A DNA stretch of 64,000 nucleotides from Subtercola boreus (GTDB lineage: Bacteria; Actinomycetota; Actinomycetes; Actinomycetales; Microbacteriaceae). Positions 735 through 31,016 of this stretch are shown here, piece after piece; position 1 is the first letter of the stretch, and the number at the start of each line of letters is the position of its first letter. Location: positions 434,001 to 498,000 of the forward strand of contig NZ_VFOO01000001.1 of NCBI RefSeq assembly GCF_006716115.1, written 5' to 3'. The notes under the pieces are model-generated. The model did no database searches and was not told the DNA's origin. It saw only the letters and a list, made by a program, of their open reading frames with translations. The translations under genes and the position numbers were made by a program.

Positions 735-1790
735 GTGTTCAGTTGCCCGAAGGCCATGGAGTACGGCCCGTGCGGGGGCGTGCACGACGACGGCTCCTGC
801 GAGGTCTCCCCGGATCCGTGCGTCTTCCTGCAGGCTCCCGCGCGACTGTTCGACGGGGTGCACCGCAGGGATGCCCCGCCCCTCCGCCCCGAGCCGGCCC
901 CCCTCATCGAGGAGGGCCGGCTCATGGTCGCTCTGCTGGAGGATCGGCCCGTCATCATGAGCGACTTCCCGATCCGGGCTGCCGAACGAGCCGCGATGGC
1001 CGACGGAGCAGCGGTGCTCCGCCACGCAGTGGATGCGGTGCTCATCGGTGAGCCACCGAGCGTCTCGGTGCAGTTCGCACCCGCCTACCGGGTGCAGCTG
1101 CTGAAGAGCTTCGGTCTCGACGTCTGGACCAGTGTGAACTGCCGCGATCGCAACCGCGTCGCGCTCGAAGGCGAGCTGGCGGCGCTCGCCGACGCCGGCG
1201 TCTCGGGGGTGCACTGCATCACCGGTGACCACACCCTCCTGGGCCGGCGGCCCGAGGCGATGCCGGTCTTTGACCTCGACTCCACCCAGCTCGCCGCGCT
1301 CGCCCGGGCCCGCGGGCTCCTCGTGTCTGTGGCGGAGTCCCCGGATGCCCCTCCGCGCGGTACCCGCCCAGCCCGGTACGCCCAGAAGGTGCTCGCGGGG
1401 GCCCAGGTCTGTTTCATCAACATCTGTTCCGGCGCCGAGACGGTGCGGGAGTTCATCCGTGCCGCTCGGGCGGAGGGCGCGGGCGGGCACTTCATCCCCT
1501 GTGTGCCGTTCATCGTGGATGAGGGAAGCGCGGCCATCATGACCGGACTCAGCTCCCATGTGCTCCCGGCCGGGTACATCGAGCGGATCATGGGCTCGCT
1601 CGATCCCCGAGCGGAGGGCATCCGGGCGGCGGTCGAGCTCAGCCTCGAGTTCCTCGCCGTCGATGGGATCTCGGGCGTCTGCCTCTCCGGCGGTGGTACC
1701 CGCGGCGGTGAACTCGAGTACGCGGGCGCGATGGCGGAGGCGGCGGTGCTGCTGCGGAGCCGTCTGGCCGAGCGCTCCGGCATCGCCTGA
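735..1790 (+). CDS. MTHFR-like protein with N-terminal MTHFR_C Cys domain (copy 1)
   Basis: A 351-residue protein. Residues 1-30 carry CPKAMEYGPCGGV followed by two more Cys (C4, C13, C22, C29), the signature of the MTHFR_C/MetV-type metal-binding domain. The rest resembles the methylenetetrahydrofolate reductase TIM barrel: CRDRNRVALEGEL (136-148) matches the folate-site segment and ITGDHT the TGDPP segment. By eye alignment, the catalytic Glu of the first strand (SFEFFPP/EVDPP in MTHFRs) is Ser76 or Asp77 here. I chose GTG at 735 because AGGAG (725-729) lies just upstream; a start at 591 would run through the end of the previous gene. It precedes an NMT1-type importer and is a clear paralogue of the gene at 5526. 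It probably acts in C1-folate chemistry, but the reaction is unproven. Confidence 0.8.
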   Translation: MFSCPKAMEYGPCGGVHDDGSCEVSPDPCVFLQAPARLFDGVHRRDAPPLRPEPAPLIEEGRLMVALLEDRPVIMSDFPIRAAERAAMADGAAVLRHAVDAVLIGEPPSVSVQFAPAYRVQLLKSFGLDVWTSVNCRDRNRVALEGELAALADAGVSGVHCITGDHTLLGRRPEAMPVFDLDSTQLAALARARGLLVSVAESPDAPPRGTRPARYAQKVLAGAQVCFINICSGAETVREFIRAARAEGAGGHFIPCVPFIVDEGSAAIMTGLSSHVLPAGYIERIMGSLDPRAEGIRAAVELSLEFLAVDGISGVCLSGGGTRGGELEYAGAMAEAAVLLRSRLAERSGIA

Positions 1791-1825
1791 GTCGGCGGCC
1801 CCGATCGAAGCCCGAGAGTTCACCC

Positions 1826-1858
1826 GCTCGTTACACAGGCACGCCGTCTGTGACGAGC
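1826..1858 (+). promoter_or_regulatory. Bulged hairpin upstream of NMT1-type importer
   Basis: The left arm GCTCGT(TA)CACAG and right arm CTGTGACGAGC form an 11-bp stem with a 2-nt bulge and 9-nt loop, with no T-tract. It could be a weak terminator of the upstream gene or an operator. The left arm GCTCGTTACACAGG (1826-1839) recurs with one mismatch at 9381-9394, ahead of the FAD oxidoreductase gene. That recurrence favours a regulatory role. Confidence 0.4.
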
Positions 1859-1884
1859 CGGAAACACAAGCGGCCTATTCTCAA

Positions 1885-1912
1885 AATGTAAGTAGGAATA
1901 ACAGTTATGTAA
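1885..1912 (+). promoter_or_regulatory. AT-rich promoter/operator candidate of the importer
   Basis: This unusually AT-rich segment holds AATGTAAGTA (1885-1894), a perfect 11-bp palindrome ATAACAGTTAT (1898-1908), and two direct TGTAA copies (1887 and 1908) spaced 21 bp, two helical turns. The reverse complement of AATGTAAGTA occurs exactly at 9433-9442 upstream of the FAD oxidoreductase. This is probably a regulator binding site in the promoter of the gene starting at 1971. Confidence 0.45.
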
Positions 1913-1970
1913 CTGACTGCTAACAATCCCTGCCGCAGACCACCCCCCTGCCCTGACGAATGGAGTACCC

Positions 1971-2966
1971 ATGTTCCGCCGCGCCAGTCCCGTATTCGTA
2001 GCCTCCGCCCTCCTCGCCACCTCGGCGCTCGCCCTCACGGCCTGCTCCTCGGCCAGCACCACCCCCGCGGCCAGCGGTTCGGCGTCAGCCGCAACCAGCA
2101 CCACCCTCCGCATCAGCACGCTGGGTCTCTGCGACGAGTCGATCTCCTGGGGCATCTCCCAGGGCATCTTCGCCGATCACGGCATCGACGTGCAGCTGAC
2201 CACCGTGCAGAGCGGTGCCGCCGGCATCGCGGCGATCCAGTCCGGCGACATCGACGTGGCGTACGCCAACCCGCTCACCAGCCTGCAGGCCATCGGTGAG
2301 GGTGTTCCGCTGAAGATCGTCTCGGGCACCGGTCTCTCGACACCTGAATCGAACGAGGTCGTCGTGGCGACCGGCTCCACCTTCCAGAAGGCCGAAGACC
2401 TCCAGGGCCAGACGATCGCCCTGAACGCACTCGGCGGCCTCGCCCAGATCGTGACCGAGAACTGGATCGCCGATGCCGCCGGCACCGATTCGACCGCTGA
2501 GTTCGTGGCCATCCCGTTCGCCGACCAGGTGACGAGCGTCGTCGGTGGCAGTGTTCCCGCCGCAGAGGTCGCCGCTTCGCAGGCTGTCTCCGCCCACACC
2601 GACGGCACCGTGCGGAGTCTCGGCAACCCGTTCTATGACGGCATCGGCGAGATCCCCACGGCGTTCTATGTGGCGAGCAGCGACTTCGAGTCGAAGAACG
2701 CGGCGGCCCTGCAGTCGTTCGCCGAAGCGATGACCGAGGTCGCCGCCTCCGCGAACGACACGGCCAACGATGCCGCCCGCGACCAGGTGCGCGCCGATGC
2801 CTGCAAGTCGACGGTCGACGCCCTGAAGGATGCCGCAGAGCCGAAGTACGAGGGCCAGCTCAACATGACCGACTTCACCTCGCTGCTCGACGTGCTCACC
2901 GCGTCGGAGGCTGTGGCATCCATCGACGTCGACTCCGTCGTGCCGGGCTACGCCCGCGCGAGCTGA
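1971..2966 (+). CDS. NMT1/SsuA-type substrate-binding lipoprotein
   Basis: A 331-residue extracellular binding protein of an ABC importer. Residues 1-25 are a lipoprotein signal with lipobox LTAC (Cys25), followed by a Ser/Thr/Ala linker. The body has the NMT1/THI5/SsuA pattern: an early EGV-type turn, VQSGAAGIAAIQSGDIDVAYANP and a hinge, as in nitrate, sulfonate, taurine and pyrimidine importers. TGGAG (1961-1965) sits 5 nt before ATG. Two permeases and an ATPase follow. The ligand cannot be assigned; neighbours suggest an N- or C1-bearing organic compound. Confidence 0.88.
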   Translation: MFRRASPVFVASALLATSALALTACSSASTTPAASGSASAATSTTLRISTLGLCDESISWGISQGIFADHGIDVQLTTVQSGAAGIAAIQSGDIDVAYANPLTSLQAIGEGVPLKIVSGTGLSTPESNEVVVATGSTFQKAEDLQGQTIALNALGGLAQIVTENWIADAAGTDSTAEFVAIPFADQVTSVVGGSVPAAEVAASQAVSAHTDGTVRSLGNPFYDGIGEIPTAFYVASSDFESKNAAALQSFAEAMTEVAASANDTANDAARDQVRADACKSTVDALKDAAEPKYEGQLNMTDFTSLLDVLTASEAVASIDVDSVVPGYARAS

Positions 2967-2971
2967 GCATC

Positions 2972-3733
2972 ATGAGACGACGGATGACCGCGATCACGCT
3001 CGGCGTGCTCGGTACCCTCTCGGTGCTGGCCGTCTGGGCGGTGATCGTCGAGCTCGGGCTCGTCTCCGCGAAGTCGCTCCCGTCGCCGTTCGCCGTCGCG
3101 GGGAGCCTGCCCGCCCTGCTCGCCGACCCGAACTTCTCCGCCAGCCTCGCCGACACACTCGGTGCCTGGTTCGTGGCGATGGTGATCGCGAGCGTCTCGG
3201 CGATCGTGCTCGGGATGATCATCGGCACGGTGCACTTCCTGAGTGCGCCGGCGATGATCGTCGTGAATGCGCTGCGGTCGATCCCGTCGTCGGCGCTCAT
3301 CCCGATCGCGATCCTGCTATTCGGGCTGGGTTCGTCGATGAAGATCGCGGTCGCCGTCTACGCCATCTTCGCCCTGGTGCTGATCAACACGATCTACGGC
3401 GTCGCCGGTCGCGAGCCGATGCGCATCGACGCGGCGCGGAGCATGCGCTGGAACTGGTGGCAGCAGTACCTCCACCTCACCCTGCCGTCGGCGACGCCGT
3501 CGATCGTCACGGGCATCCGCCTGGCTGCCGGCATCTCGCTGGTCGTGGTGATCAGCACCGAGCTGCTGGGCGCCAAGTCGGGGATCGGCATCACGATCAT
3601 CCAGTACCAGCAGGCGCTCCGCATCGACATGGCCTACGCCTGCATCACCGCCGTCGGCATCGTCGGCGTGCTCCTCTACTCGATTCTGGCCGCTGCCGAG
3701 CGGGCGACGATCGATCGGATCCGTCTTGTCTGA
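2972..3733 (+). CDS. ABC importer permease, SsuC/TauC type (1)
   Basis: A 253-residue polytopic membrane protein of the binding-protein-dependent permease family (BPD_transp_1), about six membrane segments. The EAA-type cytoplasmic loop that docks the ATPase is visible as MRIDAARSMRWNWWQQYLHL. It begins 5 nt after the binding-protein stop and its last codons overlap the TTG start of the second permease. Two different permeases imply a heterodimeric channel, in contrast to the single SsuC or TauC. Confidence 0.87.
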   Translation: MRRRMTAITLGVLGTLSVLAVWAVIVELGLVSAKSLPSPFAVAGSLPALLADPNFSASLADTLGAWFVAMVIASVSAIVLGMIIGTVHFLSAPAMIVVNALRSIPSSALIPIAILLFGLGSSMKIAVAVYAIFALVLINTIYGVAGREPMRIDAARSMRWNWWQQYLHLTLPSATPSIVTGIRLAAGISLVVVISTELLGAKSGIGITIIQYQQALRIDMAYACITAVGIVGVLLYSILAAAERATIDRIRLV

Positions 3734-4625
3734 AATCAGTGTCACCTCCACCCAGCCGATCACCTCTGGCCAGAGCGCGGCGGCGGCCCTGGTGGCCCCG
3801 GGGCGCGCTGGTGCCCGGGTGGTGGCGTTCTTCCGGCGGCTCCCGCGGTCGCTGCTGCGGCTCTGGATGCTCGTGCTGCTGCTCGCCGTGTGGGAGCTGG
3901 TGGCGCGCACCTCGCCCACGGTGTTCTTCCCGCCGTTCACCGTCGTCGTCGGCCAGTTCGGCACGGACTGGTTCGGCGGCCCCGACGCGCACCTCTTCCT
4001 CAGCGAGAAGTTCTGGTCGGCCGTGCCGATCAGCCTCTCGCGCCTCGCCCGTGGCTGGGGCCTGGCGGTGGTGCTCGGCGTCGTGATCGGGTTCGCCCTC
4101 GGCCGGAGCCCGCTTGTCCGCATGATGTACAACCCGATCATCCGGTTCTGGATGTCGGTGCCGAACGCTGCGCTGCTGCCGATCGCGATCCAGTTCTTCG
4201 GCGTCTCCGAGGCAGTCAACATCTTCCTGATCTGCTTCGGCAGCATGTGGCTGATCGCGATCAACACGGCAGACGGGGTGTCGGGTGTCGACCCGGACTG
4301 GCTCCGCACCGCCCGGAGTCTCCGCATCCCGCGCGGCGCGCTCTGGACCCGCATCATCGTGCCGGCAGCGAGTCCGCACATCCTCGCCGGGCTCCGGATC
4401 AGCGTGGGCTTCGCGCTCATCCTGATGATCGTGGCAGAACTTTACGCCACCACGTCGGGCCTCGGCCACGATGTGGCGCTCTACCAGCAGACCTTCAAGT
4501 ACAGGCAGATGTGGTCGGCGTTCATCCTGATCGCCCTGCTCGGCATCGTCATCAACCTCGTTTTCGACGTCGTCGAGAAGCGGCTGCTGCGCTGGCAGCG
4601 GCGCGCCGGGCTCGCCAGCCTCTAG
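3726..4625 (+). CDS. ABC importer permease, SsuC/TauC type (2)
   Basis: A 299-residue permease, partner of the one at 2972. After about 35 polar residues come a first membrane helix (LWMLVLLLAVWELV) and five more. The EAA loop is in DWLRTARSLRIPRGALW. The TTG at 3726 overlaps the upstream stop by 8 nt, a translational-coupling arrangement. A GTG inside the polar N-terminus (about 3791) is an alternative start that would remove a non-conserved extension. Confidence 0.85.
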   Translation: MSEISVTSTQPITSGQSAAAALVAPGRAGARVVAFFRRLPRSLLRLWMLVLLLAVWELVARTSPTVFFPPFTVVVGQFGTDWFGGPDAHLFLSEKFWSAVPISLSRLARGWGLAVVLGVVIGFALGRSPLVRMMYNPIIRFWMSVPNAALLPIAIQFFGVSEAVNIFLICFGSMWLIAINTADGVSGVDPDWLRTARSLRIPRGALWTRIIVPAASPHILAGLRISVGFALILMIVAELYATTSGLGHDVALYQQTFKYRQMWSAFILIALLGIVINLVFDVVEKRLLRWQRRAGLASL

Positions 4626-4632
4626 CACCGAA

Positions 4633-4683
4633 CGACCGAACAACAGCCCAAACCGCACAACAGCCCGAACCGCACAACAGCAG
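4633..4683 (+). repeat. Three 17-bp tandem repeats before ATPase RBS
   Basis: Three head-to-tail copies of a 17-bp unit (consensus AAACCGCACAACAGCCC) lie at 4633-4649, 4650-4666 and 4667-4683, with a few substitutions in the first. The array occupies most of the 70-bp gap between permease and ATPase genes. The ATPase ribosome binding site AGGGAG (4682-4687) abuts the last copy, so copy-number change would alter the leader but not the coding frame. Confidence 0.8.
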
Positions 4684-4695
4684 GGAGAACCGACC

Positions 4696-5529
4696 ATGGA
4701 CATGGTGATCAGCGGAGTGACCAAGCGGTACGACTCCGCGAAGGGCAGCAAGCTCGCCCTCACCGAGACCTCCTTCACCATCCGGGAGAAGGAGTTCGTC
4801 ACGATCGTCGGCCCCTCGGGGTGCGGCAAGTCGACCCTGCTGATGATGATGGCGGGCCTGCTGCCGACGTCGAGCGGCACGATCCGGCTGGGGGAGAACC
4901 TCGTGACCGGTCCCGCCGACGGGCTCGCCGTCGTGTTCCAGGAGTACAGCCGGTCGCTGTTCCCGTGGATGACTGTGGAGAAGAACCTCGCGATGGCGAC
5001 GATCGCCGACCGGCTGCCGAAGGCCGTGGTGGCTGAACGGATCGCCCGCGCGCTGCATTCCGTGGGTCTTGAGGGCTCCGGGAAGCAGTACCCGTGGCAG
5101 CTGTCGGGAGGTATGCAGCAGCGGGTGGCGATCGCCCGTGCCGTGGTGGCCGAGCCGCGGGTGCTGCTGATGGACGAACCGTTCGCCGCGGTCGACGCCC
5201 AGACCCGTGCCGACCTCGAAGACCTGGTGCTGCGCATCCGCGACGAGTACGACGTGACCGTCGCGCTCGTGACACACGACATCGACGAGTCCGTCTACCT
5301 CGGCGACCGCGTGCTGGTGCTCGGGGCCAATCCGGGCCGGGTGATGGCCGACATCGCCGTGACACTGCCGTCGCCCCGCGAGCAGGTCGCCACGAAGCGG
5401 CTGCCCGCGTTCGCGGAACTCCGGAGCGACGTGTTCGAGCTGGTGATGCGGCCGAAACAGACGGCGAGCAGTGCGGCCACGGCCGCCGCCCCCGAGCTCG
5501 CCGAGGCCGCGCGCCCGGCCGTCGCATGA
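4696..5529 (+). CDS. ABC importer ATPase, SsuB/TauB type
   Basis: A 277-residue nucleotide-binding subunit that energises the permeases at 2972 and 3726. Walker A is GPSGCGKST (39-47), the signature LSGGMQQRV, Walker B VLLMDEP and the switch His is in VTHDIDE. The Q-loop segment VFQEYSRSLFPWMTV is typical of the nitrate/sulfonate/taurine class. AGGGAG lies 8 nt before ATG. The stop overlaps the start of the next gene (ATGA), so ATPase, second MTHFR-like protein and amidohydrolase are translationally linked. Confidence 0.92.
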   Translation: MDMVISGVTKRYDSAKGSKLALTETSFTIREKEFVTIVGPSGCGKSTLLMMMAGLLPTSSGTIRLGENLVTGPADGLAVVFQEYSRSLFPWMTVEKNLAMATIADRLPKAVVAERIARALHSVGLEGSGKQYPWQLSGGMQQRVAIARAVVAEPRVLLMDEPFAAVDAQTRADLEDLVLRIRDEYDVTVALVTHDIDESVYLGDRVLVLGANPGRVMADIAVTLPSPREQVATKRLPAFAELRSDVFELVMRPKQTASSAATAAAPELAEAARPAVA

Positions 5530-6650
5530 ACCTCCTCCTGGCGAGCCCGGCCGCCGCTCCCGGCTGCCCGAAGCTCATGCACTACGGCCCCTGTGGCGGC
5601 GTCTCCGCCGACGGGTCGTGCGAGATCGCGCCGACGCCGTGCGTCTTCCTCGACCGCCCGACCGTCGCGTGGCCGGATGCGGCCGAGGCCGCGTCGGCGA
5701 GACCCGACCCGCTGCTGAACGGTTCGCTGGGCGCCGCACCGGGTCCGGCGCTGTTGCCGTCGCTGTCGCCGGGGCGCCGCACGCCCGCCGGCGAGGAGGT
5801 GCTGGCGATCATCCGGTCCCGACCGCTCGTGATGACGGGACTGCCCGCTGTGCCGATGGACAGCGCCTCGATCGCGGCCTGTGCCGACATCATGCGGGAC
5901 TCCGTCGACGTGGTGCTCTCGGGTGACTCCGGGCGCGCGCGGGTGCAGTTCCCCCCGTCGTACCGTGCGGAGCTGATCCGGCGGAACGGTCTCCGCGCGT
6001 GGCTCGGGGTCAACTGCCGTGACCGCAACCGTGTAGCCCTCGAGGGCGAGCTGCTGGCGCTCGCCGACGCCGGGGTCGCCGGGGTGCACTGCGTGACAGG
6101 CGACCACACCGACCTCGGTGACCGGGCCGACGCGAAACCGGTGTTCGACCTCGAGGGAATCCAGCTGGTGCCGCGGGCGAGAGCTGCCGGGCTGCTCGTC
6201 TCCGTCGCGGAGTCGCCTGCCTCGCCGCCCGTCGACCGTCGCGCAGCGCGTCTCATCGAGAAGGCGCACGCCGGGGCCGAGTTCTGTCTGCCGCAGTACG
6301 CCGGGGAGACGTCCGATCTCGCTCGGTACATCGACGAAGTGCGTGCCGGTGGGGTCGACATCCCGTTCGTCGCGGGCGTGCCCGTCGTCATCGACCGCAT
6401 CGGGGCCGAACTCCTCGCCTCGTTCGCCGCGGCGATCCTGCCGGCCGGGTTCATCGAGGGCATCCTCGACGCCCGCGATCCGTTCGAAGCGGGCATCCGG
6501 GCATCCGTCGCCCTCGCCGAAGAGCTGCTGGAGCTCGACGGTGTGGTCGGCATCGCCGCCGCTGGGGGGGCGCAGGTGGGGCAGGAACTGCAGTTCGCTC
6601 GGGCGCTTGCGCGCATCGGCGCCGAGCTCGGCGGAGGGGCGTCGCTGTGA
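5526..6650 (+). CDS. MTHFR-like protein with N-terminal MTHFR_C Cys domain (copy 2)
   Basis: A 374-residue paralogue of the gene at 735. The Cys domain follows a 13-residue extension: CPKLMHYGPCGGV, then two further Cys (C14, C23, C32, C39). The barrel keeps CRDRNRVALEGEL and VTGDHT. In the first strand, where MTHFRs have the catalytic Glu, this protein has VMTGLP, with Thr104 and no acidic residue, by eye alignment. It starts in an ATGA overlap with the ATPase and ends in a GTGA overlap with the amidohydrolase, so it is part of the importer operon. The two paralogues differ mostly in the C-terminal third. A C1-folate enzyme or a repurposed barrel are both possible. Confidence 0.8.
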   Translation: MNLLLASPAAAPGCPKLMHYGPCGGVSADGSCEIAPTPCVFLDRPTVAWPDAAEAASARPDPLLNGSLGAAPGPALLPSLSPGRRTPAGEEVLAIIRSRPLVMTGLPAVPMDSASIAACADIMRDSVDVVLSGDSGRARVQFPPSYRAELIRRNGLRAWLGVNCRDRNRVALEGELLALADAGVAGVHCVTGDHTDLGDRADAKPVFDLEGIQLVPRARAAGLLVSVAESPASPPVDRRAARLIEKAHAGAEFCLPQYAGETSDLARYIDEVRAGGVDIPFVAGVPVVIDRIGAELLASFAAAILPAGFIEGILDARDPFEAGIRASVALAEELLELDGVVGIAAAGGAQVGQELQFARALARIGAELGGGASL

Positions 6651-8059
6651 GCGCCGCTGCCCGCACCGTTCTCACGGTCGTGAATGCCACGATCATCCCG
6701 GTCGCCGACGGTGTCGACTGGTTCACCGGGTGGATGACCGTGGGCGATGACGGCCGCATCACGGGCCTCGGCGAGGGAGACTGCCCCGAGCCCGCGGGTG
6801 AGATCGTCGACGCCGCCGGACTGTTCGTCGCCCCGGGCTTCGTCTCCGCGCACAGCCATCTGTACACCTCGGGGCTCCGCGGGATGGCGTCGGACCAGTC
6901 GCTCTACCCGTGGGTGCGGGCGAACGGCACTGTCGTGGCGGGTTCCGCCGACGAGGACCTCTACTGGTACACGCTGCACGGCTGCCTCGACTTCATCGGC
7001 AATGGCATCACCTCGGCCTACAACTTCACGCACTCGCGGGCGATCTGGCGGTACGACCCGCTCGCCGATGCGATCGAGAGCGTCGACCTCCGCCCGGTGG
7101 GGTTCCTCGAACGGCAGGTCGACGCTGCCGCCGATTCCGGGATCCGCATCCTGAACAGCATCCGGATCGACGGCGACGTGCAGCCGGAGGGCCAGGCGCT
7201 CGAGGTGTTCGCCGACACGCTCGACTACGTGGCAGAACGCACCCCCGCCGGCCAGGACCTCGGCGCCTCCGTCTTCGGCTCGGTGCAGTGGTCGAGCACG
7301 CCGCGCACCGCCGAGCTCGAAGCGCAGCTGATGCACGAGCACGGGATCGGCAACCAGGCGCACTTCGTCGAGACGGCCGAGCACATCGAGCAGCAGCGGG
7401 CGAAGTTCGACTGGTACGACGACGCGGGAGCGCTCGGACCCGGGTTCCTCTTCGGTCACTTCGTGCATCCGACCGACCACATGGTCACCCGGGCTGCCGA
7501 GACGGGCTGCGGCATGGTCTGGCAGCCCACCTCGAACGGGCGGTTGGGCTCGGGGATCGCCGACATCCCGCGCTTCACCGGGCTCGGGATGCCCGTGGGG
7601 GTCGGCCTCGACGACCAGTCCTGCACCGACAGTTCCGATCCGTTCCAGAACATGCGGATGGGCATGTACCTGCTCCGCGCCAGCCGGTCGGACGCCTCGG
7701 TGATCACCGCGCGCGAGATGCTGCGGCTGCACACGCTCGGCTCGGCGGAGGCGCTCGGGGTGGCGGAGCGCATCGGCAGCCTGGAGGTCGGCAAGTTCGC
7801 GGACTTCGTGATCGTCGACCCGCAGCGACCCGACACCGGACCGGTCTGGAACGTTCTCGCCACCTACGTGCTCGCCTGCGGGCTCCGCAACCTCCACGAG
7901 GTCTACATCGGCGGCCGGCTCGTCAGCCGCGACGGCGTCTCGACGACCCATGACTCGGGCGAGGTGCGGAGTGAGCTGCACGAACGGATCGCCCGCGCCG
8001 CCGGAGTGAGCGGCATGCCGCTGGCGCCCGTGATGGTGCGCGATGTCAGAAGCGTGTGA
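6647..8059 (+). CDS. AtzA/TrzN-like metal-dependent amidohydrolase
   Basis: A 470-residue cytosolic hydrolase of the amidohydrolase superfamily, group of chlorohydrolases and cytosine/guanine deaminases. Metal ligands are visible as H69-x-H71 (PGFVSAHSH), H239 (QAHFVE) and D322 (GLDDQS), with E242 and H274 in the places of the catalytic pair; the spacing resembles that of AtzA and TrzN. A C-terminal GSLEVGKFADFVIVD completes the small beta domain. GTG at 6647 overlaps the preceding stop. Probable activity is hydrolytic deamination, or loss of another leaving group, from an N-heterocycle that the upstream importer brings in. The substrate is unknown. Confidence 0.85.
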   Translation: MSAAARTVLTVVNATIIPVADGVDWFTGWMTVGDDGRITGLGEGDCPEPAGEIVDAAGLFVAPGFVSAHSHLYTSGLRGMASDQSLYPWVRANGTVVAGSADEDLYWYTLHGCLDFIGNGITSAYNFTHSRAIWRYDPLADAIESVDLRPVGFLERQVDAAADSGIRILNSIRIDGDVQPEGQALEVFADTLDYVAERTPAGQDLGASVFGSVQWSSTPRTAELEAQLMHEHGIGNQAHFVETAEHIEQQRAKFDWYDDAGALGPGFLFGHFVHPTDHMVTRAAETGCGMVWQPTSNGRLGSGIADIPRFTGLGMPVGVGLDDQSCTDSSDPFQNMRMGMYLLRASRSDASVITAREMLRLHTLGSAEALGVAERIGSLEVGKFADFVIVDPQRPDTGPVWNVLATYVLACGLRNLHEVYIGGRLVSRDGVSTTHDSGEVRSELHERIARAAGVSGMPLAPVMVRDVRSV

Positions 8060-8708
8060 CGTCGTGCTCGATCAGTGCGGCCGTCTGTTCGAGGCCCGGC
8101 AGGGCACGGCGGAGCTCTGCCACTCCGGCGAAGAGGCCAGCATTCTCCCGCCTCAGCAGGGCGGCGTCGACGGTGTGCGCGAGGGCCGAGGTCAGATCGA
8201 CGCCGAGGTTCACGATGCTGGCCCGGATGACCGTGCTGAGGGTGAGTGCGGCGACCGCCACATCGGTGCGGAGCGCCGGGGTGCCGAGCCGGGAGAGGTT
8301 GGCCAGCAGCGGGGCGAAGCCCACCGCGGTGCGGCCGAGGTCGAAGGCGGAGGCGGCAGCCGAGAGACTCGCCTGCACGATGGCGGACGAGCGCTCGGCG
8401 CCCTCCTCGATCCGGAATGCTGTGGCGAAACCCTTCGACGCGGCGGCGTCGGCGTCCGCCAGCGCCGGCGCACGTCGCTGGAGGGCGTGGGCTTCGGCGG
8501 CGATCCCGGCCACGCGGTCGGCGGCCTCCGCCGGCGTTCCCGGTTCGGCGGTGGCGCCGTATCCCGCGACCATCGAAGCGAGGCCGGCCGCGATGCCGAG
8601 GAGCACCGCGGACGCGGCCCCGCCACCCGGGTTCGGGATCGGCGCGGCGAGGGAGTCGAGCCAGGTGCTCACGGTCTGGCCGGCAGTGCTGGTAAATTCG
8701 GAGTCCAC
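8046..8708 (-). CDS. Cyclodeaminase/cyclohydrolase family protein (FTCD_C/FchA)
   Basis: A 220-residue helical protein of the formiminotransferase-cyclodeaminase C-terminal family. The family hallmark PIPNPGGGAASA is at 23-34, followed by Ala-rich helices. Members either release ammonia from formimino-THF or hydrolyse methenyl-THF (FchA); no formiminotransferase domain is present here. Both reactions use folate C1 units, which fits the MTHFR-like neighbours. It is convergent with the amidohydrolase (14-bp overlap) and divergent from the XRE regulator. The GTG start has no Shine-Dalgarno; a TATCCT hexamer lies 6 nt upstream, so the mRNA may be leaderless. Confidence 0.83.
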   Translation of the reverse strand: MDSEFTSTAGQTVSTWLDSLAAPIPNPGGGAASAVLLGIAAGLASMVAGYGATAEPGTPAEAADRVAGIAAEAHALQRRAPALADADAAASKGFATAFRIEEGAERSSAIVQASLSAAASAFDLGRTAVGFAPLLANLSRLGTPALRTDVAVAALTLSTVIRASIVNLGVDLTSALAHTVDAALLRRENAGLFAGVAELRRALPGLEQTAALIEHDVTRF

Positions 8709-8785: not shown

Positions 8786-9370
8786 ATGAGCATCGTCAAC
8801 GATCATGAACTGCGGCTCGGCCGCATCATCCACGACCGGCGGAAAGACCGGGGACTCCGACTCGTGCAGGTGGCGGAGGCGACCGGCCTCTCGCACTCGT
8901 TCCTCAGCCAGCTCGAGCGGGGCAAGACGCGCGCGAGCATGCGCTCCCTGTTCGCGATCGCGAACGCCCTCGACACGACGCAGGAGGAGCTCCTGGCAGC
9001 GAGCTCTCTGCCGGGCGACGATGACAGCCATGGCGCACCGAGTGCCCAGCTGGCCGCCGAGAGCCCGCAGCGGCGGGGTGCAGAACCGTCCGCGCGTCTC
9101 CTGATGCATGCCGGTTCGGCGATCGATGTGACCGAGTTCATCGACCTGCCCACCGAGCACGGGGCGTTCTTCCAGCATCCCCGCCCCGAGCTGATCTACG
9201 TGGTGCGCGGGCAGGTCGAGTTCCAGATGCGCCAGCAGGAGAACTCTCCCGTCACGTCGATGATGCTCCAGGAACGCAACTCCGTGCTGTGCCCCGGCAA
9301 CTTTCTGCACCGCTACCGTTCGGTCGGCACGGCCCAGACGGTGGCGCTGATGATCCACTACGACGGCTGA
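8786..9370 (+). CDS. XRE-family regulator with C-terminal cupin
   Basis: A 194-residue transcription regulator. Residues about 8-65 form an XRE/HTH_3 domain (LGRIIHDRRKDRGLRLVQVA, then the recognition region GLSHSFLSQLERGK). The C-terminal half is a small-molecule-binding cupin (HPRPELIYVVRGQVEF and CPGNFLHRY). Such proteins usually sense a metabolite of the pathway they control. GGAAGG (8771-8776) precedes ATG by 9 nt. It is divergent from the cyclodeaminase-family gene, and the palindrome between them is its likely site. Confidence 0.9.
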   Translation: MSIVNDHELRLGRIIHDRRKDRGLRLVQVAEATGLSHSFLSQLERGKTRASMRSLFAIANALDTTQEELLAASSLPGDDDSHGAPSAQLAAESPQRRGAEPSARLLMHAGSAIDVTEFIDLPTEHGAFFQHPRPELIYVVRGQVEFQMRQQENSPVTSMMLQERNSVLCPGNFLHRYRSVGTAQTVALMIHYDG

Positions 9371-9442: not shown

Positions 9443-9461
9443 ATTGATCGGAAAGACAGTC

Positions 9462-10760
9462 ATGCCCCTCGACGTTCTCCTGGCCGACCTCCGTGCGATC
9501 GTCGGTGAGAAGGGAATCCGCACCAGCCTGGCCGCCCGCCAGCGGGCCTCGGTCGACGAGGCGGCGATGTCGCCCCTCCTCGCGTCCCGGCTGCCCCTCG
9601 GGCTCGCCGATGTCGTGGTGCTCCCCGCCACAATCGGTGAAGCGCAGGCTGCGGTTGCGCTGGCCGTCGCGCACGGGGTTCCGCTCACCGCGCGGGGTAA
9701 GGGGACCGGCAACTACGGCCAGGCGATTCCGGCGTTCGGCGGGATCGTGCTCGACCTGACGAGGCTCCGCACCGTCCTCGACGTGGGGGAGGGGATGATC
9801 GTGGCGGAGGCGGGCGCCAGGATGATCGATCTCGAGCTCCGCGCCCGCGACCACGATCAGCAGCTGTGGATCTTCCCGTCGACCGTGCAGAGCACTCTCG
9901 GCGGGTTCCTCGCCGGAGGTTCCGCCGGCACCGGAACGATCCAGCACGGAAACACCCGCCAGGGCTTCGTGGTCTCGCTCGACGTGCTGCTTGCGACAGA
10001 GGGTGCACCGCTCGTGCACGTCGAGGGCGGGGCGTGCAACGACTATCTGCACAGCTTCGGCGTCACCGGCATCATCGTGCGGGCCACCGTGCGGCTCGAA
10101 CCGGTGGCCGACTGGACGGCGGTGTACGCGAGCTTCGCCGACCTCGGTGAGGCCACCCGTGCCCTCCGCGCGGCGGGAGCCGTGCGGCCGGCGCCCCGGC
10201 TCGTCTCCGTCGACGATGCCGGGATCGTCGCAGCGCTCCCGGCCGACGAAGCGCTGCCGACCGGCCGGGCGAGCCTCCGTGTGGTCGCCGAACGGAGCAC
10301 CGTCGCGGAGGTCGAAGCGATCATCCGCTCGGGCGGAGGCCGTGTCGAGGCGGTGCGCGACGGGTTCCGGAGCGCCCTCGAGCTCAGCCTGCTGTCGTAC
10401 AACCATCCGAGCTGGTGGCTCATCCGGTCGGCTCCCGGCCGGATCTTCCACCTTGAGATCTTCGGCGAGGAACTCGTCGACCGCCCGCACGAGATCCAGG
10501 CCGCGCTGCCCGGCGGACGGCTGCACGTCGAGGTCGGCCACTCGTTCACGTTCGGGGCCATCAATGCCGACTATGACGACGAGACCAGCATCACGTCTGC
10601 GCTCGAGGTGCTCACCGCGCTCGGAATCGCGACCCACAACAACCACGAGTGGTTCATCGACCAGCGGGTCGACGAATTGCGGTCGATCGCCCGGCGCACC
10701 GATCCGCAGGGCCTCCTCAATCCGGGGAAGTTCGCCGGGCCCTCACCCAGACAGCGGTAA
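9462..10760 (+). CDS. FAD-binding (VAO/PCMH-type) oxidoreductase
   Basis: A 432-residue flavoprotein of the FAD_binding_4 group (GlcD, vanillyl-alcohol oxidase relatives). The FAD domain spans about 35-215: VLPATIGEAQAAVALA, then the pyrophosphate loop ARGKGTGNYGQ, GGFLAGGSAGTG and FGVTGIIVRATVRLEP. The C-terminus ends with NPGKF, common in this family. No iron-sulfur Cys cluster is present, so it is not the GlcF-fused type. ATG at 9462 has GGAAAG 6 nt upstream, preferred over TTG at 9444. It probably oxidises an alpha-hydroxy acid, alcohol or amine intermediate; which one cannot be told. Confidence 0.85.
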   Translation: MPLDVLLADLRAIVGEKGIRTSLAARQRASVDEAAMSPLLASRLPLGLADVVVLPATIGEAQAAVALAVAHGVPLTARGKGTGNYGQAIPAFGGIVLDLTRLRTVLDVGEGMIVAEAGARMIDLELRARDHDQQLWIFPSTVQSTLGGFLAGGSAGTGTIQHGNTRQGFVVSLDVLLATEGAPLVHVEGGACNDYLHSFGVTGIIVRATVRLEPVADWTAVYASFADLGEATRALRAAGAVRPAPRLVSVDDAGIVAALPADEALPTGRASLRVVAERSTVAEVEAIIRSGGGRVEAVRDGFRSALELSLLSYNHPSWWLIRSAPGRIFHLEIFGEELVDRPHEIQAALPGGRLHVEVGHSFTFGAINADYDDETSITSALEVLTALGIATHNNHEWFIDQRVDELRSIARRTDPQGLLNPGKFAGPSPRQR

Positions 10761-17126: not shown

Positions 17127-17810
17127 GTGAAGGAACTCGACTTGTACTTAGCAGACGACACCGGATCGAACTTCGATTTCATCTGGATGATCAAGAACTC
17201 CGTCGTGCCGCGCCCCATCGCCTGGGTGCAGACCCAGAATGCGGCGGGGCGCGGCAACCTCGCACCGTACAGCTACTTCAACCTCGTCTCGATGGACCCG
17301 CCGACCCTGATGATCTCGTTCGTCGGCCAGAAGGACAGCTACGACAACATCAAGGAGACCGGAGAGTTCGTCGTCAACATGGTGAGTGAGGGCCTCGCCG
17401 AGGTCGAGACGGCCAGCGCCGCCATCCTCCCCGCAGAAGTCGACGAGATCGCCCTGCTGGGCCTTGCGACGATCCCCTCGACCCGGGTCGCCCCGCCCCG
17501 GCTCGCCGTGGCGAAGGTGGCGCTCGAATGCGTCTTCCTCAGCGAGATCGAGGTGTACGACACCCGCGTCATCATCGGGCAGGTGCTCGGCATCCACGCC
17601 GACGACGACATCCTCGACGAGTCGGGGCGGGTCGACGTGCTGAAGTACCGGCCCGTCGGCCGTCTCGGCGGCTCGCTCTACACCACCGTCACCAACCAGT
17701 ACCGGCATGTCGTGCCGGGCGCCACCCCGGAGTGGATCGGCGCCCAGCCCGGAGGCGAAGCAGCCCTTGTGGCGCTCGGCGCCTCAGAACCTCAGAAGGA
17801 GAACCACTAA
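17127..17810 (+). CDS. Flavin reductase (DIM6/NTAB family)
   Basis: A protein of up to 227 residues of the FMN-binding split-barrel flavin reductase family. It shows PRPIAWVQTQ, LAPYSYFNLVS and the FVVNMV segment of this family. It should supply reduced FMN to the two LLM monooxygenases immediately downstream. The start is uncertain: GTG at 17127, or TTG at 17142, which has AAGGAA 6 nt upstream. Its stop overlaps the next start (TAATG). Confidence 0.88.
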   Translation: MKELDLYLADDTGSNFDFIWMIKNSVVPRPIAWVQTQNAAGRGNLAPYSYFNLVSMDPPTLMISFVGQKDSYDNIKETGEFVVNMVSEGLAEVETASAAILPAEVDEIALLGLATIPSTRVAPPRLAVAKVALECVFLSEIEVYDTRVIIGQVLGIHADDDILDESGRVDVLKYRPVGRLGGSLYTTVTNQYRHVVPGATPEWIGAQPGGEAALVALGASEPQKENH

Positions 17811-19123
17811 TGTCCGCAGATCCCTTCCACCTCGCGTGGTTCACCCCGTTCAAGGCCCCCGCGTGGAAGAGCCCCTGGGCCTCCGACACAGCCCTGACCT
17901 GGTTCAACGGCGACTACTACATCGACATGGCGAAGCAGCTCGAGCGCGCCGGGTTCGACTTCATGATGTTCGAGGACTCGACTCTCGTGTCGAACTCCTA
18001 CGGCGGTACCACCGAGAACGACCTGAAGCACGCCCTGCACGCGCCGAAGGCGGATCCGGTTCCCCTGCTGCCCCTGCTCGCAGCGGCCACCGACCACATG
18101 GGGTTCATCGCGACCATGTCGACCTCGTTCTACCCGCCGTTCATCGTGGCCCGCGTGATGGCCACGATGGACCACCTCACCCGGGGCCGCATCGGCTGGA
18201 ACGTCGTCACCTCCAGTGAAGACCTCGCCGGACAGAACTACGGCCTCGACCAGTTGCTGCAGCACGACGAGCGGTACGACATGGCGGAGGAGTTCGTCAC
18301 CGTCGTGAAGAACCTCTGGGACTCGTGGGAGCCGGGCGCGATCGTCGCCGACCGCGAGACCGGCTACTACGCCGACCACACGAAGGTGCACGAGATCAAC
18401 CACGTGGGCAAATACTTCAAGGTGCGCGGCCCGTTGAACCTCCCTGCGGGCCCGCAGGGGCATCCGGTGATCTGCCAGGCCGGTGGTTCGCCCAAGGGCC
18501 GCGACTTCGCGGCCAAACACGCCAACGTGCTGCTCGCCTCCACGGGGTCGGCCGAGGCGATGAAGGAGTACCGCGACGACATCCGCGCCCGAGCGGCGGC
18601 CCACGGCCGGAACCCCGACGAGGTGAAGGTGATGTTCATCATCCAGCCCGTGCTCGGAGAGACCCAGGCCGACGCCGAGGAGCTCTTCGACCGCACGTAC
18701 GAGATGAGCCAGGCGCAGATCGAGACGCTGCTCGGCATCATGTCGATCACCATGGAGATCGACTTCAAGCAGTTCGACCTCGACAAACCGCTGCCCGACG
18801 ACGTGCAGACGAACGGGCACCAGTCGGGCCTCGCCGGGTTCCGGAAGGCCGCCGGCGGCCGCACCATCCGCGAGGCGCTGAGCGCCCGCCCCGGGGGAGT
18901 GCGCCTCGTCGGCACCCCCGACTCCGTGGCGGAGCAGATGGACGAGGTGATGGAGTTCGTCGGCGGCGACGGGTTCCTGATCCGCGGGGAACCCGTGCGC
19001 ACCCACTCCCGTCGCTACATCGACGAGATCGCCTCGGGCCTCGCTCCTGCGCTCCGGCGTCGCGGGCTCATCCGCAGCGACTACGACAAGTCGACCTTCA
19101 AAGCCAACCTGGCCTCGTTCTAA
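17810..19123 (+). CDS. LLM monooxygenase, NtaA/SnaA/DszA type (1)
   Basis: A 437-residue FMNH2-dependent monooxygenase of the bacterial luciferase-like superfamily. NtaA-group features are visible: FEDSTLVSNSYGG near the N-terminus, GRIGWNVVTS, the HDERYDMAEEF helix, KYFKVRGPLN and VICQAGGSPKGRDFAAKHA. The family acts on chelators, sulfones and N- or S-heterocycles. AAGGAG in the preceding gene end precedes ATG at 17810. It is about the same length as the neighbouring paralogue at 19134, so the two may form a heteromer or act in sequence. Confidence 0.92.
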   Translation: MSADPFHLAWFTPFKAPAWKSPWASDTALTWFNGDYYIDMAKQLERAGFDFMMFEDSTLVSNSYGGTTENDLKHALHAPKADPVPLLPLLAAATDHMGFIATMSTSFYPPFIVARVMATMDHLTRGRIGWNVVTSSEDLAGQNYGLDQLLQHDERYDMAEEFVTVVKNLWDSWEPGAIVADRETGYYADHTKVHEINHVGKYFKVRGPLNLPAGPQGHPVICQAGGSPKGRDFAAKHANVLLASTGSAEAMKEYRDDIRARAAAHGRNPDEVKVMFIIQPVLGETQADAEELFDRTYEMSQAQIETLLGIMSITMEIDFKQFDLDKPLPDDVQTNGHQSGLAGFRKAAGGRTIREALSARPGGVRLVGTPDSVAEQMDEVMEFVGGDGFLIRGEPVRTHSRRYIDEIASGLAPALRRRGLIRSDYDKSTFKANLASF

Positions 19124-19133
19124 GGACTCCCGG

Positions 19134-20447
19134 ATGACCGTGAAACCCTTCCACCTCGGCTGGTTCCTGAACGGCACCAGCGTGCCGGCCTGGGGGCAGC
19201 CCTTCTCCGGCGCGATCGGTACGCAGTGGCAGTCGGCCGAGATCTTCGTCGACCTCGCCCGGGCGATGGAGCGAGCCTGCTTCGACTACGTGCTGATCGA
19301 GGACAACACCTTCGTCGGCGACCGCTACGGCGACTCGATGGAGGTGTACCTCAAGCACGCCTTCCAGGCGCCACGCCAGGACCCGATGATCGTGGCCACG
19401 CTGCTCGCGCAGGCCACCTCCAAGCTCGGCATCATCCCGACCGCCGGCTCGTTCGCCTACCACCCGTACATGCTGGCGCGGCTGGTCGGGTCGCTCGACC
19501 AGCTGTCGAAGGGCCGGATGGGCGTCAACCTCGTCACCGGCACCAGCGACCGTGCCCTGCAGAACTACGGCTACCCCGGCATGGGCGAGCACGACTCCCG
19601 CTACGACACGGCGGAGGACTTCATCAACGCCTCACTCGCTCTCTGGGACACCTGGGAACCGGATGCGGTCGTCGCCGACGTGCACACCGGCGTCTGGGCC
19701 GACCACACCAAGGTGCATCGTGCGGACTTCGAGAGCGCGACGTACTCCACCCGCGGGCCGCTCAACTCGGGTCCGCTGCCGCAGGGGCGGCCGATCATCT
19801 CGCAGGCCGGGGGGTCCCCCCGCGGCATCGCGTTCGCCGCGAAGTACGCCGACACGGTGATCGCGATCCAGGCCACGCCCGCGAAGATGAAGGAGTACCG
19901 CGACAAGGTGCGGGAGGCGGCCGTCTCGTTCGGCCGGAACCCCGACGACGTCAAGGTGCTGTTCGGCATCTGGCCGACGATCGGCTCCAGCCAGTCGGAG
20001 GCCGACGATCGGATCGCGGCCGCACGGGCCGGGGTGGCCGCGAACCTCGAGGTGGCGCTCGCCGCGATGGCGAAGAGCACGGACATCGACTTCGCGAACG
20101 TCCCGCTCGACGTGCCCCTCGGCGAGCTCGGACTCTCGACCAACGGCACCCAGCAGTTCGCCGAGTTCTCCGCCCGGAACGCCACGCTGACCCTCCGGGA
20201 GGCGACCATCGCGCGCAGCGGCGCCGCGGGACCCGCGCTGGCAGGAACACCCGACCACGTCGCCGGCCTGATGGAGGACATCATGGCGGAGGTCGGCGGC
20301 GACGGCTTCCTGATCGGCACGAACGGTGTCACCCGCCGTTTCATCGCCGAGATCACCGACGGTCTCGTGCCCGAACTGCAGCGCCGAGGGCTCACCCGAC
20401 GCGGCTACTCCTTCGACCAGCTGCGCGACAACCTGCTCGAGTTCTAG
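19134..20447 (+). CDS. LLM monooxygenase, NtaA/SnaA/DszA type (2)
   Basis: A 437-residue paralogue of the preceding gene. It has IEDNTFVGDRYGDS, GRMGVNLVTGTSDRALQNYG, the HDSRYDTAEDF helix, YSTRGPLNSGPLPQGRP and IISQAGGSPRGIAFAAKYA. The region after GRMG reads VNLVTG in place of the WNVVTS in the first copy, which suggests a different substrate pocket. AAGGA (19122-19126) lies 7 nt before ATG. It needs FMNH2, presumably from the reductase at 17127. Confidence 0.92.
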   Translation: MTVKPFHLGWFLNGTSVPAWGQPFSGAIGTQWQSAEIFVDLARAMERACFDYVLIEDNTFVGDRYGDSMEVYLKHAFQAPRQDPMIVATLLAQATSKLGIIPTAGSFAYHPYMLARLVGSLDQLSKGRMGVNLVTGTSDRALQNYGYPGMGEHDSRYDTAEDFINASLALWDTWEPDAVVADVHTGVWADHTKVHRADFESATYSTRGPLNSGPLPQGRPIISQAGGSPRGIAFAAKYADTVIAIQATPAKMKEYRDKVREAAVSFGRNPDDVKVLFGIWPTIGSSQSEADDRIAAARAGVAANLEVALAAMAKSTDIDFANVPLDVPLGELGLSTNGTQQFAEFSARNATLTLREATIARSGAAGPALAGTPDHVAGLMEDIMAEVGGDGFLIGTNGVTRRFIAEITDGLVPELQRRGLTRRGYSFDQLRDNLLEF

Positions 20448-20481
20448 AACATCCACATCCCTTCTGAAAGGCAACACTCAC

Positions 20482-21282
20482 ATGCGCGGATACGTCGACA
20501 CCGACTGGGGCCAGCTGCACTACCGAACGAGCGGGCCGGCCGTCGCTGACGGCGGACCCGTCGCCGTGCTCTTCCACGAATCGCCCCGGTCGTCGCTCGT
20601 CTACGAGCCGATCATGGCCGCTCTCGGGGAGTACCTCACCGCTTTCGCCTTCGACACCCCCGGCTTCGGGCTCTCCGACTCCGCACCCGAGGGGGCGACG
20701 ATCCCGGAGTACGCCCGCATCTTCCTGCAGGCGATCGACGCTCTCGGCATCGGCGGGTTCACAGCGGTCGGCATGAAGACCGGCAGCTCGCTCGCCACCT
20801 CGGTCGTGACCCTGGCCGGCAAGGATCGCGTCCCGAAGGCCGTGCTCTACGCGCTGAACCCACCGGATGCCGAGAAGAGCGAGTACTGGGCCGTGAACTG
20901 GGCACCCGACCTGCCGGTCACCGAAGACGGGTCGATCTTCGACTACCTGTGGAAGAAGAACGTCGGGCTCTACGGCACCGACAGCCCCCGGGATCTCTCG
21001 CTCTGCGTCGCGGAGACCGTCGTCAACCTCGAACGGTACAACTCGATCTACCCGGCGGTCTTCCGCTTCGGGCCGACCACTTTCGAACTGAACGAGAAGC
21101 TCGTGGCGGCGGGCGTGGCCATCACGGTCATCCAGCCCTCGGCCGAACAGATGACGCCGAACGACCCGCTGGAGTTCTTCCACCTGCCCGGCACCACCGA
21201 TGTGTTCATGCCCGTCACCGGACAGTTCGCCTCGCGCGCACCGAAGGAATTCCTCGAAGCCATTGTCGCTGTCGCCGGCTGA
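20482..21282 (+). CDS. Alpha/beta-hydrolase-fold protein lacking Ser nucleophile
   Basis: A 266-residue protein with the alpha/beta-hydrolase layout: an HGxP-like FHESPRSS after strand 3, DTPGFGLSD after strand 4, and a nucleophile-elbow position. The elbow reads VGMKTGSS, giving Lys where Ser, Cys or Asp should be. No GxGH-type catalytic His is seen near the C-terminus; the region reads LEFFHLPGTTDVFMP. It may be a lyase, a cofactor-free enzyme or non-catalytic. GAAAGG (20466-20471) precedes ATG. It follows the two monooxygenases and probably acts on their product. Confidence 0.82.
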   Translation: MRGYVDTDWGQLHYRTSGPAVADGGPVAVLFHESPRSSLVYEPIMAALGEYLTAFAFDTPGFGLSDSAPEGATIPEYARIFLQAIDALGIGGFTAVGMKTGSSLATSVVTLAGKDRVPKAVLYALNPPDAEKSEYWAVNWAPDLPVTEDGSIFDYLWKKNVGLYGTDSPRDLSLCVAETVVNLERYNSIYPAVFRFGPTTFELNEKLVAAGVAITVIQPSAEQMTPNDPLEFFHLPGTTDVFMPVTGQFASRAPKEFLEAIVAVAG

Positions 21283-29795: not shown

Positions 29796-31016
29796 TCAGG
29801 CCGAGGCGGCGGGGGTGGTGGGGCCGACGGCCCAGAGGCGCTCCCACATCGCGGTCGGGCCGACCCCGTTGAGCTCCCAGTCGCCGAGCTGCGCGTACTT
29901 GTAGATGGCGGGATTGTGCGACGCGACCGTGCGGGCGTTCCGCCAGTGGCGGTCGAGCGCGGCCGGGCGCGCCGTCGCAGACGCGCCACCGACCTCGAAC
30001 AGCAGGGTCGCGGCCCGCAGCGCGTCGTCGAGCACGCGCACCTGCGCCTGGTAGGTGGCGATCTCGGCGGCATCGAGCAGCGCAGTGCGGTCGGCGGGCG
30101 CGGCACCGGATGCCCGGGGCTCCGTCGCGCGGGCCAGGGCGTCGGCCGCGGCGCCCACCAGCGCACGGCCCGTGAAGGCGAGCGCCGACAGCTCGCCGAT
30201 CACCGCCCGCACCTGCGGATCGTCGCGCGGGGCTGCAGCGTTCGCCGAGATGTAGGTGCGCTTCCGCGGCTGCACGAACGCCACCGCGTCGGCCAGCACG
30301 GCGGCCGAGATCCCCGCCGCCACAGACACCAGCACGAGCTGGAAGAATGCCCCGAGGTGCGACGCGCCGCCCGCCGAGTAGTTCGCGACGGTCAGCGGAT
30401 CCACCTCGACGTTCTCGAAGACCGTCGTGCCGCTGGCGGTGAGGCGCTGGCCGAAGCCGTCCCAGTCGTCGAGCATCGTCACGCCGGGCGCGTCCGTCGG
30501 CACCACGCAGGTCACGCGTTCGGTGCCCCGCGCCGCGGCGACGTAGACGTGCGAGCTGTACAGGGTGCCGGTGGAGTAGTACTTCGTTCCGTTCAGCAGC
30601 AGCCGGTCATCCGTCGCCTGGAGCGTGGTCTGGATGTCGGCTAGCGAGTTACCCGTTGTCTCGCTGGCCGCGTTGCCGACGATGGCCCCGTTCGCGATGG
30701 CGCGGAGCCAGCCGCTGCGGTACTCCGACTCCGGTTTCAGCAGCAGGATCTCGACGAACGCGAAGTGCCCGCGCAGCAGGTGCGCGACGTTGGAGTCGGC
30801 GGTGGCGAGGTCGACCAGCAGGGCGAAGAACTCGGGCAGCGAGCATCCGGAGCCGCCGTGTTCGACCGGAACGCGGAGGGCCGTGAACCCGGACCGCTTC
30901 AGCGCCCCGACGGCGTCGTGGGCGAGCTCACGGTCGAGTTCGCGCTGCACGGCCCCGGCGGCGATGGCCGCGAAGACCTCCGCGAAACGGGCGGCATCGG
31001 CCGAACTCTCAGCCAT
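29796..31016 (-). CDS. DszC/SfnC-like acyl-CoA-dehydrogenase-fold monooxygenase (1)
   Basis: A 406-residue flavin-dependent monooxygenase with the acyl-CoA dehydrogenase fold. LRVPVEHGGSGCSLPEF, the middle domain LNGTKYYSTGTLY and the C-terminal DRHWRNARTVASHNPAIYK match the DszC/SfnC group, which oxygenates sulfides or sulfones with reduced FMN. It overlaps the DszA-like gene by 8 bp and is last in a three-gene operon. Distal genes in such operons scavenge sulfur, which fits the divergent methionine importer. Confidence 0.88.
   Translation of the reverse strand: MAESSADAARFAEVFAAIAAGAVQRELDRELAHDAVGALKRSGFTALRVPVEHGGSGCSLPEFFALLVDLATADSNVAHLLRGHFAFVEILLLKPESEYRSGWLRAIANGAIVGNAASETTGNSLADIQTTLQATDDRLLLNGTKYYSTGTLYSSHVYVAAARGTERVTCVVPTDAPGVTMLDDWDGFGQRLTASGTTVFENVEVDPLTVANYSAGGASHLGAFFQLVLVSVAAGISAAVLADAVAFVQPRKRTYISANAAAPRDDPQVRAVIGELSALAFTGRALVGAAADALARATEPRASGAAPADRTALLDAAEIATYQAQVRVLDDALRAATLLFEVGGASATARPAALDRHWRNARTVASHNPAIYKYAQLGDWELNGVGPTAMWERLWAVGPTTPAASA

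Follow-up and report, generated by a model that had tools for sequence, protein, structure and literature searches.

Two paralogues with a cysteine module and an MTHFR-like barrel flank an NMT1-type importer in Subtercola boreus and lack the catalytic glutamate

Methylenetetrahydrofolate reductases (MTHFRs) of the MetF type, including the enzymes of E. coli and Thermus and the human catalytic domain, carry a catalytic glutamate, Glu28 in E. coli numbering. According to PMC11094777, three reductases that differ in their cofactors share this residue, and it is retained (Glu9) in the mycobacterial flavin-free Mfr, represented by MSMEG_6649 and M. hassiacum Mfr. MetV of the acetogen C. ljungdahlii is given in PMC8515935 as a separate subunit with two predicted [4Fe4S] clusters. 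Here we describe two MTHFR-like proteins encoded in a 64,000-nucleotide stretch of Subtercola boreus DNA (contig NZ_VFOO01000001.1, positions 434,001 to 498,000; the whole stretch is referred to as the window). The proteins, copy 1 and copy 2, are paralogues that flank an NMT1-type ATP-binding cassette (ABC) importer, and where MetF-type enzymes have Glu28 they have Asp or Gly. The genes and the modules within them are as follows:

735..1790, + strand: copy 1 (type 1), four-Cys module and MTHFR-like barrel, 351 aa
744..821, + strand: four-Cys MTHFR_C/DUF5981-like module of copy 1 (C4, C13, C22, C29)
1971..2966, + strand: NMT1/SsuA-type substrate-binding protein of the importer (PF09084, E 2.9e-15)
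2972..3733, + strand: ABC permease A; the name reflects its position and its tblastn kinship across loci rather than a family scan
3726..4625, + strand: ABC permease B, named in the same way
4696..5529, + strand: ABC ATPase, nitrate/taurine type (ABC_tran, E 1.2e-31)
5526..6650, + strand: copy 2 (type 2), four-Cys module and MTHFR-like barrel, 374 aa
5565..5642, + strand: four-Cys module of copy 2 (C14, C23, C32, C39)

Several described systems resemble the copies in part. Relative to MetF-type MTHFR, the copies carry the extra Cys module and differ in gene context, and copy 1 shows 13-18% identity to MTHFRs in its ten best structure alignments. Acetogenic MetVF shares the module, with the pattern CPK...GPCGG...CE...C, but the module of the copies is short in comparison with MetV, is fused to the N-terminus of the barrel and has only four grouped N-terminal Cys. 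The flavin-free Mfr differs in having its Glu9 where the copies have Asp or Gly. The MTHFR of Sphingobium SYK-6 (7xg9/7xlf), which we take to serve aromatic O-demethylation, differs in that no GcvT-like gene was found in the window cluster. Cthe_2304 (3ijd), whose entry is named uncharacterised, holds two bound molecules of 5-methyl-tetrahydrofolate (5-methyl-THF) and has 10% identity. In a literature search that covered few subscription papers, no description of the family was found under DUF5981 or under MTHFR with purine or urate gene clusters, nor any paper joining methylenetetrahydrofolate reductase, allantoinase and creatininase. The main text of a report on folate degradation by Variovorax does not contain the terms gene cluster or ABC transporter (PMC9513972).

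In both copies the module pattern lies at the N-terminus and is followed by the barrel. Copy 1 starts with GTG, preceded by AGGAG, and the ATG start of copy 2 overlaps the stop of the importer ATPase. The binding protein and the ATPase were both matched by Pfam scan, and the permeases were assigned by position and kinship. The Pfam matches and Cys positions bear out a preliminary description of this DNA, made from its letters alone, which had proposed two paralogues with an N-terminal four-Cys module on an MTHFR-like barrel flanking an NMT1-type importer. The CRDRN and TGDH segments that it reported were likewise read in both sequences, as they are in Glu-bearing barrels of the phylum. Two further genomes show the same series of genes, running from copy 1 through the binding protein, two permeases and the ATPase to copy 2: G497 (locus L141; 57% and 59% identity to the copies), with an FTCD_C gene after copy 2, and G960 (L172; 63% and 55%), with an XRE-cupin gene next. 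Chance can be excluded because the family is conserved, the arrangement recurs in these genomes, and the predicted structures are confident, with a mean predicted local distance difference test score (pLDDT) of 91.3 for copy 1 and 87.8 for copy 2. A third paralogue lies about 1.59 Mb away from the pair in the host genome.

Profile and structure comparisons place both proteins in the MTHFR superfamily. The Pfam scan used slightly different starts for the two copies (591 and 5547, respectively). Against MTHFR (PF02219; curated cut-off 24 bits), copy 1 scored 17.3 bits, below the cut-off, and copy 2 scored 38.7, above it. Both copies reached the 23-bit cut-off of MTHFR_C/DUF5981 (PF12225), at 30.5 and 23.1 bits, with partial matches spanning model positions 28-76 (copy 1) and 41-69 (copy 2) of 95. 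The NCBIfam model PRK08645 (cut-off 453) was not reached by either copy (50.8 and 69 bits), nor was fadh2 (cut-off 293.7) by copy 2 (27.7 bits), and a contig scan with copy 2 gave 11 loci, all distant. When Foldseek matches were re-ranked by VIA-align, the top rows for both models were solved MTHFRs, consistent with an MTHFR-type (beta/alpha)8 barrel. The copies thus securely belong to the MTHFR superfamily, as a conserved, diverged branch whose reaction is uncharacterised. They should not be called MTHFR, because the catalytic Glu was tested for and is absent.

That absence was determined in several ways. In an alignment with Glu-bearing barrels and canonical MetF, the Glu28 column holds Asp in copy 1 and Gly in copy 2; among 21 Cys-module rows of the same alignment it holds Asp in 20 and Gly in one. 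A profile search of the PDB placed this column on residue 28 of E. coli MTHFR. In the models, strand 1 comprises residues 73-77 of copy 1, ending in D77, and residues 101-105 of copy 2, ending in G105. Structure rows against E. coli mostly begin 71=22 for copy 1 and 99=22 for copy 2, and the remaining rows start one position sooner in both; provided strand 1 is ungapped, these starts put D77 and G105 on residue 28. Profile alignment and structure prediction placed a conserved Glu in the Glu28 column of neither copy, so the catalytic Glu at the end of strand 1 is absent from both, as the preliminary description had read by eye. Its choice of Ser76/Asp77 for copy 1 is now narrowed to Asp77, at which strand 1 ends, and its choice of Thr104 for copy 2 was one residue off: both the alignment and the end of strand 1 rule out T104 in favour of G105. 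Loss of a catalytic acid, as that description implied, therefore holds for copy 2 but not for copy 1, which keeps an Asp at the strand end.

The remaining pterin-site residues were then compared. Four positions are named in PMC11094777, in E. coli numbers: A, Glu28; B, Phe223; C, Gln183; and D, Asp120, with acids reported at A and D, carboxamides at C and a large hydrophobic residue at B. Copy 1 has D77, M269, N229 and D165 at A to D, and copy 2 has G105, L297, Q257 and D193. The TGDH segment carries the Asp120 equivalent in both copies, the Gln183 position is a carboxamide in both, and the Phe223 position is a large hydrophobic residue in both. On these alignments, the hydrophobic, carboxamide and Asp120-type positions securely keep their character in the two window copies, and the retained contacts favour a pterin- or folate-type ligand.

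The signature was followed through 102 rows, defined as open frames of at least 150 residues scoring at least 90 bits against the close-family profile (A1), with identical ends merged. Position A was Asp in 55 rows, Glu in 35 and Gly in nine, an acid thus being present in 90, and three rows could not be placed. These included L076 and L084, where an Arg at A seems to be a misplacement, since a smaller alignment gives Asp. Residues at A and C varied together: Glu/Gln in 34 rows and Glu/Asn in one; Asp/Asn in 52 and Asp/Asp in three; Gly/Gln in eight and Gly/Asp in one. Position B was Leu, Met, Ile, Val or Phe in 101 of the 102 rows, with a gap in the other, which rules out an assignment of B to Arg or Glu. 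Position D was Asp in 100 rows and Asn in two, L177 and L181. The latter two are Cys-module MTHFR-like proteins with Glu/Gln at A/C, and their neighbourhood holds an importer and an amidohydrolase, together with a frame that by eye resembles a phosphotriesterase-type hydrolase. All 23 further class-level sequences, read by eye and not aligned, show Asp at A. Asp is thus securely the usual replacement of Glu28 in these alignments, with Gly in a sub-branch that includes copy 2.

A tree was built by a quick method from 66 of the 102 rows, with near-copies and most Glu rows dropped and columns A and C removed; it carried a long-branch warning. Eight Gly/Gln rows, including copy 2, formed one group (SH-like approximate likelihood ratio test, SH-aLRT, 99), nested with weak support among Asp/Asn rows. 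Copy 1 grouped separately from the copy 2 group, with L161 and L141 (support 100). The pattern suggests that Glu to Asp was accompanied by Gln to Asn, and Asp to Gly by a return to Gln; this pairing is suggestive only, because the events are few.

The genes downstream of copy 2 are as follows:

6647..8059, + strand: amidohydrolase with kinship to 8-oxoguanine deaminase and ATZ/TRZ hydrolases, scoring under the curated cut-offs; its start overlaps the stop of copy 2
8046..8708, - strand: FTCD_C cyclodeaminase/cyclohydrolase-like protein, facing the amidohydrolase; in L141 a relative comes directly after copy 2 in the listed order
8786..9370, + strand: XRE-cupin regulator, with relatives accompanying the module at other loci
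9444..10760, + strand: FAD_binding_4 oxidase, with relatives accompanying the module elsewhere; 46% identical to a gene of the third-copy locus

Relatives were sought in overlapping genome samples that include the host, and were matched in 179 of 396 genomes (E 1e-10), 47 of 398 (1e-40), 20 of 396 (1e-40) and 32 of 394 (1e-45); the aligned loci from the 1e-10 search are mostly Glu-bearing barrels. From the hits, 54 loci were picked by hand; several belong to a single genus, some share a genome with another locus, and some are truncated by contig ends. Genes of relatives were called with a simple GC-frame caller, which gives false calls in high-GC DNA, and contexts were read mainly by tblastn; urate genes denote a tblastn match to uricase or allantoinase. 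An NMT1-type binding protein lay near a family member in 35 of the 54 loci. These 35 importer-linked loci showed an amidohydrolase (33), a FAD oxidase (31), a creatininase-type hydrolase (28), a PNPOx-like flavoprotein (25), an XRE-cupin gene (21) and urate genes (19). Of the 19 loci where no importer binding protein was found, two had urate genes and two had a GcvT-like gene. Uricase or allantoinase was not found within the stretch examined, in some cases short, at 16 of the 35, so it is the importer, amidohydrolase and oxidase, not the urate genes, that family members seem to accompany. The third copy in the host (L051, L066; about 2.00-2.04 Mb) lies in a xanthine-urate-allantoin cluster, which is equipped with an NMT1-type importer of its own as well as a creatininase-type hydrolase, a FAD oxidase and a PNPOx-like protein. 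NCBIfam matches over cut-off were hydroxyisourate hydrolase and allantoinase at that locus, and urate oxidase, OHCU decarboxylase and allantoate amidohydrolase at loci of relatives; the host xanthine dehydrogenase match was below its cut-off. The family is thus often associated with a nitrogen-heterocycle catabolic module, which the preliminary description did not foresee.

Elsewhere in the window, in a separate flavin-monooxygenase cluster (17127-22723), a flavin reductase precedes two luciferase-like monooxygenases, after which come an alpha/beta hydrolase and an MFS transporter. A luciferase-like monooxygenase adjoins an acyl-CoA-dehydrogenase-like protein at 29796-32379, a pair that we take to be reminiscent of sulfur-scavenging oxygenase sets, and a DUF222 protein is encoded at 48673-50586.

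Taken together, these data place the copies in an uncharacterised branch of the MTHFR superfamily, in which a short MetV-like Cys module precedes a pterin-site barrel in a single chain and which is often tied to a putative module for the import and breakdown of a nitrogen heterocycle. The family, predicted fold, pterin-site residues, pairing and gene neighbourhood are shown, and on them we base a proposal about roles; the reading as a whole has a probability of about 0.4. The importer would take in a ring compound, which the amidohydrolase would deaminate and the FAD oxidase would oxidise. Copy 1 may bind a reduced folate or pterin in an MTHFR-like manner through D165, N229 and M269, where D77 would serve as a shortened general acid. 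The step would be a redox or one-carbon (C1) transfer, for which the most likely candidate is the oxidation of a C1 unit that the pathway frees and that is bound to folate. Copy 2 would take a ligand of that kind with no acid at A, and may be an altered-function or partner protein rather than a product of decay. The Cys module may bind a metal or support assembly; it would be dispensable, because some orthologues do not have it. Specifically, the module is absent from both L141 copies and from the Gly-type rows L142, L164 and L172, which rules it out as an essential element. L146 was also scored as having no Cys, though by eye part of the module appears in another frame of its draft sequence.

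Several observations weigh against this reading. The A1 profile alone found no PDB chain at E 0.01 or better, and profile matches to the PDB required the addition of Glu-bearing relatives. Nearly all of the aligned rows come from one phylum and are not independent. No importer binding protein was found in 19 of the 54 loci, of which L055 and L060, the latter cut by a contig end, carry urate genes. Activity with Asp is unproven, because the E. coli residue was tested as Glu28Gln, not Glu28Asp, in the source cited (PMC11094777). The folate-C1 part is weak. For the GcvT domain the host genome gave only two matches, of which one is strong and the other weak, and FTCD_C appeared in no locus but the window and L141, in searches made in most loci at E 1e-10 or 1e-8, at which the L141 match itself (6.3e-8) would be missed. 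A GcvT-like gene adjoins more distant relatives in two genomes (L105 and L106); the L105 gene matches the dimethylsulfoniopropionate (DMSP) demethylase model below cut-off, and the L106 gene shares 57% identity with the L105 gene. The earlier idea that the barrels carry out a demethylation draws only indirect help from these genes.

It is also possible that the barrel has as its target the ring of a purine- or pteridine-like compound brought in by the importer, and not folate C1 units, in which case Asp165/Asp193 and Asn229/Gln257 would hold the amino-pyrimidine edge. The urate genes in 19 of the 35 importer-linked loci, and the NCBIfam purine-route enzymes at the third-copy locus or at loci of relatives, would fit such a role. 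So would the persistence of a carboxamide at C and a carboxylate at D in most rows while A drifts, and a host without a strong match to the canonical methyl-THF-using methionine synthase. However, an acid is kept at A in 90 of the 102 rows, and 16 of the 35 loci showed no urate genes within stretches that were in some cases short. No enzyme of the MTHFR fold is known to us to work on a purine or pterin ring in free form, which further counts against this explanation.

The recurrent pairing of the two types raises the question of whether catalysis falls to copy 1 alone, with copy 2 as a regulatory or structural partner that is itself catalytically dead, a hetero-pair such as the preliminary description had proposed. 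Three genomes (G000, G497 and G960) have the flanking pair with its importer, in G878 a pair lies side by side, and copy 2 and its seven companions in the Gly/Gln group have no acid. The pairing is therefore real, but it is not obligatory. Lone Gly-type members, with no type-1 partner found, occur in G516 (L142), G895 and G882, G516 carrying an Asp-type member at another site. In G843 (L174), which has a neighbourhood like that of G960, only copy 2 is kept, the importer and copy 1 having apparently been deleted. The two adjacent members in G878 (L173; same genome as L163), which follow a binding protein, both have Gly at A, the first of them (L163) included. An obligatory pair is thus ruled out, and the division of labour between catalyst and partner is doubtful.

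A more specific proposal is that importer, amidohydrolase, FAD oxidase and barrel form an unrecognised breakdown pathway for pteridines or folate fragments, feeding the xanthine-urate-allantoin route, with the barrel a pterin-ring enzyme recruited from MTHFR. Some bacteria degrade pterins via tetrahydroxypteridine and xanthine-8-carboxylate, and to our knowledge the cycloisomerase of that route is still without an assigned gene. We regard such a pathway here as improbable.

The copies are also unlikely to be MTHFRs of the ordinary kind, supplying 5-methyl-THF for methionine synthesis. Copy 2 is the only host match to PF02219 at E 0.001 or better, and could on that ground be the MTHFR of the host. 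Among 12 genomes of the genus, however, a near full-length MetF and a strong MetE occur together in only three (G001, G002 and G007). In the other nine, including the host (Meth_synt_2 match, E 1.6e-35), Meth_synt_2 was matched only more weakly (E 1e-33 to 1e-37) and PF02219 in part at best. The MetH domain PF02965 was found in 0 of the 12, and in seven of 14 control genomes by the same search. A methionine role for the copies is therefore unlikely, because no full-length MetF, strong MetE or MetH match was found in the host, flavin-free Mfr-type MTHFR not having been searched for. Moreover, G001 and G007 hold both MetF and a member of the copy 1/copy 2 family, and family members sit in catabolic clusters. 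As observations in their own right, the genus shows an apparent joint loss of the methyl-THF route to methionine, and in two of its genomes, G005 (contig C44) and G010 (contig C26), a second GcvT-domain gene is found no more than about 2 kb from a short PF02219 match; the two may form a THF-dependent demethylase pair that has no relation to the copy 1/copy 2 family.

That copy 2 is a decaying gene, as its lost catalytic acid and the loss of the Cys module from some orthologues might suggest, is scarcely credible given its open frame, its overlaps with the ATPase at the start and the amidohydrolase at the stop, its 51-64% identity to Gly-type proteins of the other genomes compared and a Gly/Gln signature kept in eight rows.

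The family offers a natural experiment on the role of Glu28, in the form of an Asp branch with a Gly sub-branch, where A changes with C while B and D hold. The cluster in turn points to an undescribed step in the use of nitrogen heterocycles by actinomycetes.

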